Position numbers and translations under genes: made by a program. The notes under the pieces were generated by a model. That model had not been told where the DNA came from. It was given only the letters and a program-made list of their open reading frames with translations, and did not search any database. DNA of 64,000 nt from Natrononativus amylolyticus (GTDB lineage Archaea; Halobacteriota; Halobacteria; Halobacteriales; Natrialbaceae): NCBI RefSeq assembly GCF_024362525.1, contig NZ_CP101458.1:1984001-2048000 (forward strand). The letters run 5' to 3'. Numbering within the stretch: the stretch's first letter is position 1; each line of letters begins with the position of its first letter. Below, one piece after another: positions 8,929 through 14,093 of this stretch.

Positions 8929-9114
8929 GTGTCCACCATCTGTCAGGGGACACGCCGGGCCGAGGGATAACGGTAGCCATTAAGATATTATCATCGTCTT
9001 ATTGACTCGATATCGTATGAATGCGTTAGTATGTCACTGGACGTGTGCTACCAGTGCGCCCGACGGGGGTCCGAGACCGACGAATACTCGTGTGGCCGCC
9101 GGCTACCGGGAGCT

Positions 9115-10251
9115 ATGAGCGGACTCGACGTCGAACCGGTCGACGAGGCCGACGCAGAAGGAGAGACGGAGACGGCGGACAACACCATCGAGGTGACGCC
9201 GACCGACGCCACCGAAGAGCGGACGGCGATCGACGTCGAGCCCTCGGGCGAGCCGGTCGACGGGCCCGATTACGTCCTCTACGGCGGGAAAGGCGGCGTG
9301 GGGAAAACGACGATGGCGGCGGCGACCGCCCTCGACAGCGCTCGCCGGGGCACCAAGACGCTGGTCGTCTCGACCGACCCCGCCCACTCGCTGTCGGACA
9401 CGTTCGAGCGGGAGATTTCGAGTCGACCAGAGCGCATCCTCGAGGACGCGCCGCTGTACGCCGCCGAGATCGACCCCGACGCGGCCCTCGAGGACAGCCA
9501 GGCCGCCTTCGCCGCCGAGGGCGGCGCCGGCGCCAGCGCGCTCGGCGGGCTGGGCGAGTTCATGGGCGAGGATTCCCCGATGGACGTACTGTTCGGCGGG
9601 GCGATGCCCGGCTCCGACGAGGCCGTCGCCATGCAGACGTTACTCGAGTACATGGACGACGACCGGTTCGACCGCGTGGTCGTCGACACCGCGCCGACCG
9701 GCCACACGCTCCGATTGCTCCAGCTGCCGGAGATCATGGACACGATGATGGGGCGGATGATCGCCTTCCGTCGGCGCATCGGCAGCATGGTCGACGGTAT
9801 CAAGGGAATGTTCGGCAACGAGATGCCCGAGGAGGGCGAGGACCTCCGGGACCTCGAGGTCCTCCGCGAGCGGATCGAGCGCCTGCGGGCCACCCTTCGA
9901 GACCCCGAGCGGACCGACTTCCGGATCGTCCTCGTCCCCGAACAGATGAGCGTCCTCGAGTCCAAGCGGCTGCGCGAGCAGCTCGCGGAGTTCGACATCC
10001 CGGTCGGCACCGTCGTCGTCAACCGCGTCATGGAGCCGCTGGCGGAGGTGACCGAGGACGTCCGGGGGGAGTTCCTCGAGCCGGATCTCGAGGGCTGTGA
10101 GTTCTGCCAGCGCCGCTGGGACGTCCAGCAGTCGGCGCTGACCGAAGCCCACGAGCTGTTCCGGGGAACGGACGTCAGGCGGGTACCGCTGTTCGCCGAC
10201 GAGGTCAAAGGCGAGGAGATGCTCGAGGTCGTCGCGGCCTGTCTCCGCTGA
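9115..10251 (+). CDS. ArsA/Get3-family ATPase
   Basis: 378 residues. The deviant Walker A motif YGGKGGVGKTTMAAATAL begins near residue 62, followed by STDPAHSLSDTF (switch I / A-loop) near 98 and VVDTAPTGHTLRLLQLP near 195. A CxxC pair (EGCEFCQRRWD) near 333 corresponds to the zinc-binding cysteines of the Get3 dimer. One ATPase domain, so closer to Get3 than to the double-domain bacterial ArsA. Family role: ATP-driven targeting of tail-anchored membrane proteins or arsenite export; no arsenic genes are nearby, so the first is more likely. An upstream in-frame ATG at 9031 would add a cysteine-rich leader; the start at 9115 is preferred. Confidence 0.85.
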   Translation: MSGLDVEPVDEADAEGETETADNTIEVTPTDATEERTAIDVEPSGEPVDGPDYVLYGGKGGVGKTTMAAATALDSARRGTKTLVVSTDPAHSLSDTFEREISSRPERILEDAPLYAAEIDPDAALEDSQAAFAAEGGAGASALGGLGEFMGEDSPMDVLFGGAMPGSDEAVAMQTLLEYMDDDRFDRVVVDTAPTGHTLRLLQLPEIMDTMMGRMIAFRRRIGSMVDGIKGMFGNEMPEEGEDLRDLEVLRERIERLRATLRDPERTDFRIVLVPEQMSVLESKRLREQLAEFDIPVGTVVVNRVMEPLAEVTEDVRGEFLEPDLEGCEFCQRRWDVQQSALTEAHELFRGTDVRRVPLFADEVKGEEMLEVVAACLR

Positions 10252-10315
10252 TCCGCGTCGGCGAGGACGACCGGGACAGGAACCTATTTTTGTGCGCCTC
10301 GAGATGTTTGCGTCG

Positions 10316-11140
10316 ATGAACGTCACTGTCGACAGAAAGAACGCCGTCGGAACGGTCACGGAAGCCGCCGGCTGGCTGGTGCGGAACCCGGCGCTGATCG
10401 CCGCGTTCTTCGTTCTCGGAGTCGTGCAGGCCGCCGGCGAAGAGTTCTTCCTCCTGTCGCTGTTCGGCTGGTTCCTCTCGCTGTACCTCGGCGGGATCGC
10501 GTACGTCTACGCTCGAGACGAGCTGGCGGGCGCCGACCCCGACCTCAACGAGGCGTCCTCTCAGGTCCTGCCGCGGATACTCTCGCTCGTGGGGATCTTC
10601 TTCGCCTACGGAATCGCCGTTTTCGTCGGCCTGCTGTTGTTGATTATCCCGGGGATCTACCTCAGCCTCCGGCTCGTCCTCGCGTTCCCGGCCTGCGTAC
10701 TCGACGACAAGCGGGCGATCGAGAGCCTCAAGACGAGCTGGCGCGTGGCCCACGGGAACCTGCTGAAGCTCCTCGGCATCTCGATTCTCATGTTCGTCGT
10801 CTCGCTCAGCGCCATCGTCGTCACCGCGCTGTTCACCGGGCTGGGCGACGAGTTCCTCGTCGGCCTCCTCGCCGTCACGGCCGTCCTCACCGCGTTCCTC
10901 ACGCCCATCGTCGAGATGGCCTACGCGCGCATCTACCTCGAGAACCGCGAGCCGGACGATGGCGAGTCGGACGACGACTGGGACCGCGACGACGGCGACG
11001 CGTGGGACCGCGACGAGGACGACTCGTGGGACCGCAACGAGGACGACTCGTGGGACCGCGACGACGACTGGGGCACCTCGGACGACGAGACGGATTGGTC
11101 GACCGACGACCGCGACGACCGCGACGAGTCGCGCTGGTAG
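10316..11140 (+). CDS. multi-span membrane protein with Trp-Asp repeat tail
   Basis: About 275 residues. Residues 1-205 hold five or six hydrophobic segments and resemble the YciC/GlpF-like haloarchaeal DUF7847 type of membrane protein (sequence SLKTSWRVAHGNLLKLLGIS near 142 is typical). The last 65 residues are extremely acidic and repetitive, with WDRD/WDRN recurring every eight residues. An ATTTTT stretch at about 10285-10290 lies some 28 bases before the ATG at 10316, which decides this start over the ATG at 10304 and the GTG at 10292. Function unknown; the tail probably lies in the cytoplasm. Confidence 0.65.
   Translation: MNVTVDRKNAVGTVTEAAGWLVRNPALIAAFFVLGVVQAAGEEFFLLSLFGWFLSLYLGGIAYVYARDELAGADPDLNEASSQVLPRILSLVGIFFAYGIAVFVGLLLLIIPGIYLSLRLVLAFPACVLDDKRAIESLKTSWRVAHGNLLKLLGISILMFVVSLSAIVVTALFTGLGDEFLVGLLAVTAVLTAFLTPIVEMAYARIYLENREPDDGESDDDWDRDDGDAWDRDEDDSWDRNEDDSWDRDDDWGTSDDETDWSTDDRDDRDESRW
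10966..11070 (+). repeat. tandem 24-base coding repeat, WDR(D/N) octapeptides
   Basis: Within the membrane protein gene, a 24-base unit (GAGGACGACTCGTGGGACCG plus four more bases) is repeated. It encodes the octapeptide EDDSWDRN/D at least twice exactly and with drift on either side (SDDDWDRD, GDAWDRDE). The near-identity at the DNA level suggests recent duplication by slippage. Confidence 0.65.
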
Positions 11141-11158
11141 GACCCGATCGGTCGGCGG

Positions 11159-12544
11159 TCAGGTGTCGACGACCAGCACCCGCAGATCGTTCACGTTCGT
11201 TCCCGTGTACCCCGTCTCGAGCAGCGCGTCTCGCGACTCGAGGGCGCCGTGGCTGTCGTGGGCGGCGAGGCGCCGCCGACTCGCCGCGAAGTCGGCGACC
11301 GTCTCCCGGTCGACGACGGCCCCGCAGGCGTCCGTGGGGCCGTCGATGCCGTCCGTGTCGACGCTCGCGAGGACGGCGTCGGTGTCCCGCTCGCGGAACT
11401 CGAGGGCGGCCACCAGCGCGAGTTCCTGGTTCGGGCCGCCGGTCGCATCCCCGTAATCGGGGTCGTCGTCTCCGTCCCCGTCTCGAAGCGTCACCGTCAC
11501 CTCGCCGCCGGAGAGGACGACCGCCGGTGGCTCGAGGGGGTCGCCCGTCGCCGCGATCTCCTCGGCGACGGCGGCGTGAACCCGACCCACCTCGCCGGCC
11601 TCCCCGCGGAGCCGACTCGAGAGGACGGCGGTCTCGTACCCCCGGTCCTCGGCGACCGCCCGGGCGGCGTCGATCGCCGTCCGGCCGTTCGCGAGCAGGT
11701 ACCAGTCGGGGTCGCGTCCCGAGTCGAACGCCGGATCGGTCCCGTCCGGCGTCTCCGAGACGTCGCCCGCGACGCCGGCCTCGAGTCGCTTCAGGACCGC
11801 CCCCGGAAGCGCGTCCTCGAGCGCGTAGCGATCGACGACCGCGCGGGCGTCTGCGAACGTCGTGGAGTCGGGAACCGTCGGCCCGCTGCCGATCACCGCC
11901 GGGTCGTCGCCGACGACGTCGCTGACCGCGAGCGTGACGACCGTCGCGGGGGCGGCCGCTCGCGCCAGCCCGCCGCCCTTGATCGCCGAGCAGTGCTTGC
12001 GAACGGCGTTGATCTCGTCGATCGCGGCCCCGGAGGCGAGTAACGCCTCGGTCGACGCCTCGAGGTCCGAAAGCGAGAGGCCGGCGGCGGGCGCACACCA
12101 CAGCGCGCTCGCGCCGCCGGTGACGACCGCGAGAAACAGCGTGTCGGCGCCGGCGCACTCGGCCACCTCGAGCACCCGCTCCGTCGCCGTCACGTTCCGT
12201 GTCGTGGGCGTCGGGTGGTCGCCGGGGAGATACTCGATTCGCCCGGTCGCGGACGTCGGTTGCTCCCCCGTCGAGACGACGACGCCCTCCTCGAGCCGGT
12301 CGCCGAGGAGCGACTCGAGCGCCTGCACCGCGCCCGCTGCGGCCTTCCCGCCGCCACAGAGGACGATACGGTCGTACGCCGCGAGGTCGTACTCTCGGCC
12401 GTCGATCCGCAGTTCGTCGCCTTCGAGCGCGAGTCGGTTCTTGACGGCGGTTTCGGGACTCGCCGCGCGGATTCCGGCCTCGAGGCAGGCGAGGGCGGTC
12501 TCGTGGGCGGGCGTTCTCGCGTGGTGGTCGCTGCGACGGAACAT
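11159..12544 (-). CDS. glycerate 2-kinase (MOFRL family)
   Basis: 461 residues from the ATG at 12544 (MFRRSDHHARTP). Family signatures are plain: VLCGGGKAAAGAVQALE near 65, VVTGGASALWCAPA near 127, and the C-terminal MOFRL domain with GGPNQELALVAALEF near 375 and SVDTDGIDGPTDACGAVVD near 398. The enzyme phosphorylates glycerate to 2-phosphoglycerate, feeding lower glycolysis. Haloarchaea use it for sugar acids from the semi-phosphorylative pathway or glycerol breakdown. The reading frame stays open for another 129 codons upstream into a decayed membrane-protein gene; the start is placed at the first Met that matches the family's normal N-terminus. Confidence 0.85.
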   Translation of the reverse strand: MFRRSDHHARTPAHETALACLEAGIRAASPETAVKNRLALEGDELRIDGREYDLAAYDRIVLCGGGKAAAGAVQALESLLGDRLEEGVVVSTGEQPTSATGRIEYLPGDHPTPTTRNVTATERVLEVAECAGADTLFLAVVTGGASALWCAPAAGLSLSDLEASTEALLASGAAIDEINAVRKHCSAIKGGGLARAAAPATVVTLAVSDVVGDDPAVIGSGPTVPDSTTFADARAVVDRYALEDALPGAVLKRLEAGVAGDVSETPDGTDPAFDSGRDPDWYLLANGRTAIDAARAVAEDRGYETAVLSSRLRGEAGEVGRVHAAVAEEIAATGDPLEPPAVVLSGGEVTVTLRDGDGDDDPDYGDATGGPNQELALVAALEFRERDTDAVLASVDTDGIDGPTDACGAVVDRETVADFAASRRRLAAHDSHGALESRDALLETGYTGTNVNDLRVLVVDT

Positions 12545-13068
12545 CCTGTTTCGTTCGGCCACCGGGTCGGTATTGGCGTTACCGGTCGCCGTCTCGCTCG
12601 AGGAGCGGGCCCGCTCCCCGTCGACCAGCGCCGCCTCCTCACGCTGGTCACTCGCGTCGCTCGCGCCGGCGAGACCCAGTTCGTCGGTCGCACACTCGAG
12701 ACAGTAGTGGTTGTACCCCTCCGAACGGGTGTACACCGGGACGCCGGCGACGGCGTACTCCTCGCGGTAGCGGCGGACGAGTCCGCGGTCGACCCCGCGG
12801 CCGAACTCCGAGCGGCCGTGACGTCGGTTCAGCCGTCGCCGAAAGCGGGGGTTGACGAAGACGCCCAGCGCGACCAGAACGAACGCGGTGAGCAGCCAGA
12901 GCGCCGAGAGAACTGCCGCGCCAGTCGTCACGCCGCCCTGTGCGAGCTGTCCGAGGACGACGGCCGCGGCGACGACCCGAACCCCATCGAGAGCCAGCCG
13001 ACGACGCCGTAGAGGAGGGCGGAAACTCGGTCTGCGAGCCGGACGATTTCAGTGCCATCGTCTGACAC
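12545..13068 (-). pseudogene. decayed membrane/zinc-knuckle gene fused in frame to glycerate kinase
   Basis: From the GTG at 13068 one frame reads MSDDGTEIVRLADRVSALLY and GVVGWLSMG, then becomes Ser/Pro-rich and stops at 12928. One base over, the frame reads VRVVAAAVVLGQLAQGG and continues into a second hydrophobic segment (SALWLLTAFVLVALGVFVN), then VDRGLVRRYREEYAVAGVPV and YNHYCLECATDELG. A one-base frameshift near 12985-13005 would join these into a single protein with two membrane spans and a cysteine motif. Only one CxxC is present; a zinc knuckle would need a second. There is no stop before glycerate kinase, so the remnant reads straight into it. Decay is the simplest explanation; programmed frameshifting is not excluded. 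Confidence 0.55.
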
Positions 13069-13136
13069 GGTAGCCCTCGGTTCGTTTCCTGCAGAACCGA
13101 ATAAGCCTTCTGACGGGGTTTACGGCAGGATCGAAC

Positions 13137-14093
13137 TCACACCAGCCGTCGGAGGAGCCCGTAGGCGGCGTCGCGGAGGCTGTCCGGGAGGTATCGGACG
13201 TATATCCCGTACTCCGCCAGCGGGCCGACGGGGTAGCGTGCGGGGGGCTCCGGACAGGTTCCCGCGTGGAGGATCGCCGCGGCGACCTCCTCGGGGGAGA
13301 TCGCGAGCGGCCCGCTGCCGCCGATCAGCCGCGCCTCCTCGATCATCTCGTACAGCGACTCGTACGCCGGCGTTCGCGTCTCCTCCGGGGGGAGTTCGTC
13401 GTCGACGCGCTCGGTGAACTCCGTCTCGACCGTCCCCGGCTCGATCAAGACCACCTCGACGCCGAACTCCTCGGCTTCGGCTCTAAGGGCGTCGCTCATC
13501 GCCTCGAGGGCGTGTTTCGCCCCCGAGTAGGCGCCGGTGCCGGCGAACGCCATCCGCCCGAGAACGCTCGAGACGTTGACGATCCGTCCCTTTCCCTGGG
13601 CGCGCATGTGCGGCAGCGCGGCGCGTGTCAGTCGGTGGGGGCCGTAGACGTTGACGTCGAACTGGCGGTGGAGTTCGGCTGTCGAGACGTCCTCGAGCGG
13701 CCCCATCTGCCCGTAGCCCGCGTTGTTCACGAGGCAGTCGATCGCGCCGCCGAGGTCGACCGTCCGCTCGACGACCGAGGCGACCTGTTCGGGGTCCGTG
13801 ACGTCAAGGGCGAGCGTCTCACAGCCGAGTTCGTCGAGGTCCGCGATGTCCTCGGGGTCCCGAGAGGTCGCGACGACCAGCCACTCGTTCTGGAGGAACG
13901 CCCTGGCGGTCGCGCGTCCGATCCCGGACGAACAGCCGGTGATCAGGACGCACCGCTTGCGGGTGTAGCGTCCGTCGTCCGCGGTGTCCGTCGTCGTCCC
14001 CTCGTCCGTGCCGGTGTCCGTACTCGAGCCCACAGCGGTCGAGCCGACGGCCCCGTCCTCGTCGGTTTCCTCGGCTTCCTCAGCGATGGCCAT
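13137..14093 (-). CDS. short-chain dehydrogenase/reductase
   Basis: 318 residues. After a 45-residue Thr/Asp/Glu-rich N-terminal extension the classical SDR core begins: TGCSSGIGRATA (NAD(P) binding) near 53, DVTDP near 97, NNAGYGQMGPLED near 122, and the catalytic Ser...YxxxK as SSVLGR...YSGAK near 175-193. Arg in SRDP after the second strand hints at NADP preference. The substrate cannot be told; the branch resembles SDRs acting on lipid or retinoid-like alcohols. The extension is unusual for the family but codes in the same frame without a break; a shorter start is not obvious. Confidence 0.85.
   Translation of the reverse strand: MAIAEEAEETDEDGAVGSTAVGSSTDTGTDEGTTTDTADDGRYTRKRCVLITGCSSGIGRATARAFLQNEWLVVATSRDPEDIADLDELGCETLALDVTDPEQVASVVERTVDLGGAIDCLVNNAGYGQMGPLEDVSTAELHRQFDVNVYGPHRLTRAALPHMRAQGKGRIVNVSSVLGRMAFAGTGAYSGAKHALEAMSDALRAEAEEFGVEVVLIEPGTVETEFTERVDDELPPEETRTPAYESLYEMIEEARLIGGSGPLAISPEEVAAAILHAGTCPEPPARYPVGPLAEYGIYVRYLPDSLRDAAYGLLRRLV

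Follow-up and report, generated by a model that had tools for sequence, protein, structure and literature searches.

The question raised by this locus is how its glycerate 2-kinase is made. Within the window (the whole stretch of DNA analysed here, 64,000 nt), the gene is preceded by the remains of a membrane protein gene that stay in the kinase's frame up to its first codon. An initial annotation of the locus offered two readings: a membrane-tethered kinase translated from an upstream GTG, or a simple remnant followed by a kinase that begins at its own ATG, 12544. We therefore compared the locus (Table 1) with related loci.

Table 1. Features of the locus, with positions in the window.
Feature	Position	Strand	Basis or remark
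SDR (short-chain dehydrogenase)	14093-13137	-	Pfam adh_short, E 5.8e-50; upstream neighbour common to UP or kinase in relatives (synteny)
Possible TATA-like stretch, CTTATTC	13099..13105	-	31-37 bases before UP start; by eye, without statistical test
UP, first piece	12928..13068	-	GTG start 13068, 46 codons, stop TGA 12930-12928
One-base frame shift in UP	12976..12985	-	End of first membrane helix
GTGA overlap	12928..12931	-	First-piece stop overlaps GTG 12931, which opens 129 codons
UP, second piece	12545..12979	-	145 codons in kinase frame, stop-free
Junction of in-frame 24-codon loss (first CxxC)	12794..12799	-	Alignment to relatives
CLEC, remaining CxxC of UP remnant	12703-12692	-	Sequence
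Glycerate 2-kinase, 461 aa	11159..12544	-	ATG 12544; DUF4147 8.7e-77, MOFRL 4.6e-26
Convergent membrane protein, acidic repeat tail	10292..11140	+	Flanks locus
ArsA-like ATPase (presumed)	9031..10251	+	Flank found behind SDR-kinase and SDR-UP loci alike

A broken UP gene upstream of the kinase

We use the label UP for a haloarchaeal membrane protein with two helices and four cysteines that is encoded beside an SDR. Eight intact relatives from the family (L002-L009) measure 172-210 residues from their likely starts, carry two CxxC pairs and have a stop codon of their own. The two membrane helices are predicted from hydrophobic stretches together with a low-confidence structure model of one intact member, in which helices are followed by three strands (mean pLDDT 63.6, pTM 0.31). 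When two intact members were compared with Pfam and NCBIfam, no model scored above its cut-off. An order-wide search found UP matches at E <= 1e-38 in 21 genomes of other families, and all eight loci fetched from these families have neither SDR nor kinase beside UP. Locus L174, in a genome of another family, holds two tandem UP-like genes (941-1384 and 1543-2010).

In the window, the initial 31 residues of the first UP piece match the intact relatives and the remainder of that piece is out of frame. From about 12979 UP resumes in a different frame, which stays free of stops into the kinase; this second piece comprises the second membrane helix, a basic stretch, CLEC and a hydrophilic tail, with 42-55% identity to 11 relatives. 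In the intact relatives a single frame covers both pieces. The frameshifted remnant described in the initial annotation is borne out, as are its coordinates for remnant and kinase, the lack of a stop across the second piece and the count of exactly 129 codons between GTG 12931 and ATG 12544. The single CxxC that it reported is likewise present, and the accompanying loss had gone unnoticed: 24 conserved alignment columns, including the first CxxC, are absent from the window UP, in a deletion that preserves the reading frame. One CxxC pair is left instead of two, so that two of the four cysteines are missing; by alignment count 37 of 38 relatives have all four, and L179 has three. Unlike the intact relatives, the window UP has no single uninterrupted frame closed by its own stop, and its disabling lesions are the frameshift, the loss of the conserved cysteine pair and the missing stop.

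The remnant is nevertheless well conserved against what the SDR would predict. Averaged across 101 core columns, it is 58.1% identical to relatives versus 49.4% expected from the SDR, a residual of +8.7 that is the highest of 30 genomes, with the reservations that the pairs are not independent and that rapid evolution of the window's SDR would produce a like residual. Positions 11161-12979 form a single coding stretch under a codon-usage model, and G+C at third positions amounts to 0.85 for the remnant as against 0.91 for the kinase. Conservation above the SDR expectation, together with the coding signal, leaves two options: lesions of very recent date, or continued selection for some product. 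This conservation speaks against a long decay; a recent one would not show. Towards its end the remnant departs from the codon-position G+C of a gene: the 146 bases at 12545-12690 have 0.73 at third and 0.85 at second positions where the kinase has 0.91 and 0.53. A search for a same-genus genome with which to date the lesions returned only the window's own genome.

The kinase and its start codon

The kinase appears full length from its domain matches, which span DUF4147 positions 2-234 of 234 and MOFRL positions 2-106 of 106; its match to NCBIfam GlyK_Thmprot reaches 218.6 bits, under the curated 550. It is the sole match in its own genome at E <= 1e-30. With both Pfam domains complete it resembles other DUF4147/MOFRL glycerate 2-kinases, and it is 54-66% identical to 16 family kinases that directly follow an SDR. 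What sets it apart is the run of 145 in-frame remnant codons before it.

The start of close kinase relatives corresponds to ATG 12544 and gives the same Met-Phe, and a start codon followed by Phe is found in 19 of the 23 other kinases whose match extends from residue 1 (three of them duplicate records). Only one codon separates an in-frame stop from the kinase start in L033 and L040, and three codons do so in L036. These starts and stops favour the second reading of the initial annotation, a remnant with the kinase starting at 12544, over the first. Long upstream frames also occur elsewhere: the frame ahead of the kinase is open for 168 codons or more in three of 29 relatives, 168 being the figure for the window itself, although some of these lengths were measured from a match that begins a few residues into the protein. 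Of 2000 dinucleotide shuffles of the remnant, 10.4% were free of stops over 145 codons and 13.5% over 129. Upstream open frames are thus common by composition and the open frame alone is unremarkable; as it is matched in both shuffles and relatives, it is weak evidence for a longer protein. Judged from the sequences, the kinase very probably starts at its usual ATG.

Could the remnant tether the kinase to the membrane?

A longer product would require translation to begin at GTG 13068, terminate at TGA 12930 and resume at the overlapping GTG 12931, yielding a protein of 590 residues, and we regard this as improbable. The layout predicted for it, one membrane helix, a basic flank and a cytoplasmic kinase, is likewise unlikely, even though a strong helix (mean hydropathy 2.52) is indeed followed by RFRRRLNRR. 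The GTGA overlap sits exactly at the first-piece stop, the 24-codon loss leaves the frame intact, and the conservation of the remnant above expectation would suit a product under selection. In Haloferax volcanii and E. coli, 13 of 14 tested overlapping gene pairs are strictly coupled according to the abstract of PMC6728339. The window shares with these pairs a stop and a start codon overlapping by four bases. It differs in that its overlap is GTGA, created by a frameshift inside one gene, and that coupling is putative; the pairs described in the available part of that paper are AUGA with strong Shine-Dalgarno motifs, and "GTGA" is absent from that text. By eye, no Shine-Dalgarno motif was found before GTG 12931. 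Any NTGA in this register, where N is A, G or T, creates an overlap, which makes GTGA a weak coincidence. The conserved kinase start, the loss of half of the cysteine domain and the un-gene-like end of the remnant also count against a tethered enzyme, and no membrane-anchored archaeal glycerate kinase turned up in a literature search. That the frameshift made a coupled pair through GTGA, and with it a new fusion enzyme in the form of a tethered glycerate kinase beside the soluble one, therefore seems doubtful to us.

A sequencing error is more doubtful still. The frameshift would then be an artefact and the true gene a continuous UP-kinase fusion without the first CxxC, a reading that would fit the short G runs adjoining the shift and the unusual conservation of the remnant; the cysteine-pair loss and the missing stop would, however, persist. 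Across 464 kb of the window genome the codon-usage model gave 36 frame changes on the same strand: 34 were accompanied by a stop and a start close by, and 2 were frameshift-like places that lacked an overlapping stop and start. In 400 kb of a control genome (G009), 58 changes were of the first kind and 2 of the second. So few places indicate that the assembly is not generally rich in such errors, in a test that is weak because its overlap rule is lenient and the UP case, with its short first piece, went unflagged. The two other frameshift-like places in the window genome are in L190 near 2466 and in L197 near 2175.

UP or kinase behind the same SDR

We then examined the neighbourhoods of 30 family UP loci (L062-L091) and 29 non-window kinase loci (L032-L060), each with about 1.5 kb of flank on either side. 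An SDR lies directly upstream of UP in 29 of the 30 UP loci, the remaining one (L091) having neither SDR nor kinase, and a kinase was found within the 1.5 kb flanks of none of the 30. Directly upstream of the kinase, the SDR is present in 16 of the 29 kinase loci and not in 13, and none of the 29 has UP within its 1.5 kb flanks. UP and kinase thus occur together in 0 of 59 loci, and SDR, UP and kinase are all present only in the window among the loci examined. Between SDR and kinase matches lie only 6-126 nt, which leaves no room for UP, and a search at loose thresholds for kinase remnants behind UP gave a best weak match of E 1.5.

The relatives therefore show intact, separate UP genes with their own stop, a pattern that the initial annotation had itself named as one half of the case against a tethered kinase. 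Nor did the wider family supply a second case of UP before a kinase: in tables for 125 family genomes (kinase at E <= 1e-30 and UP at 1e-15, weaker copies uncounted), positions compared by eye showed, outside the window, no contig on which a full-length UP and a kinase lie 50 kb or less apart, in a comparison that would miss neighbours split across draft-genome contigs. The nearest UP-kinase distance outside the window is about 53 kb.

Further downstream, the gene at 9031..10251, which we take to be ArsA-like from inspection of its sequence by eye, has counterparts behind 9 of 16 SDR-kinase loci and 6 of 29 SDR-UP loci within 1.5 kb flanks. Three named haloarchaea that are more distant than the family members used (L098, L115 and L123) likewise have it after SDR-kinase. 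From this named-genome collection 12 of 80 loci were used (L092-L101, L115, L123) and 68 were dropped as distant or bacterial; no very near relative was found in the collection, which may omit such records. The slot between SDR and ArsA-like gene (9031-14093 in the window) holds UP in some family genomes and glycerate kinase in others. The tail of the convergent membrane protein contains a 24-base tandem repeat (4.2 copies, 10969-11068) coding for an acidic stretch rich in D, W and R. A CTTATAT, seen by eye, stands before some intact UP genes (L074, L075, L077, L087) at a spot similar to that of the window's CTTATTC. Promoter and terminator scans of the locus with bacterial models, to which archaeal promoters are foreign, returned nothing.

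On a tree of the SDR (50 rows, four exact duplicates removed), the UP label changes 4 times, 3 of these changes being forced by well-supported branches, and genera g2 and g18 each contain both SDR-UP and SDR-kinase types. Several deep forks of this tree are open, it carries a long-branch warning, and the window's own placement is not settled. The kinase tree (37 rows, five duplicates removed) places the window in a group of 16 with support 89/94, in which the SDR is next door in 15. Together with synteny, the two trees suggest an old SDR-kinase arrangement in which UP later took a place between the two, followed by the loss of either UP or the kinase from different lineages. Repeated insertion or replacement at the SDR slot is a possible alternative history.

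Discussion

We consider it likely that a separate UP gene decayed recently at this locus, with the kinase made from its own ATG and the remnant merely sharing its frame. A gene for two membrane helices and a four-cysteine, zinc-ribbon-like domain would once have stood between SDR and kinase. Comparison with relatives indicates that it was recently broken by the frameshift and the loss of the first cysteine pair, and that the stop before the kinase is gone. As start conservation implies, the kinase would be translated as in its relatives, the 129 upstream in-frame codons would be leftovers, and remnant and kinase would share a frame by chance. Synteny and trees point to a window that retains the order SDR-UP-kinase where other lineages kept SDR-UP or SDR-kinase only. 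Among the loci examined, it alone keeps both UP and kinase, with UP now broken.

In the main, then, the locus shows a gene decaying in an ordinary way, and what is of interest is its either-or history. An upstream remnant that stays in frame, as here, can lead annotators astray, towards a fused membrane kinase. Should the tethered form prove true after all, it would show how stop loss can create a new membrane enzyme, and the fusion would have been caught at birth. For the biology of the group, this is a site where members of one haloarchaeal family carry either UP or the kinase after the same SDR, and where a single genome has both.
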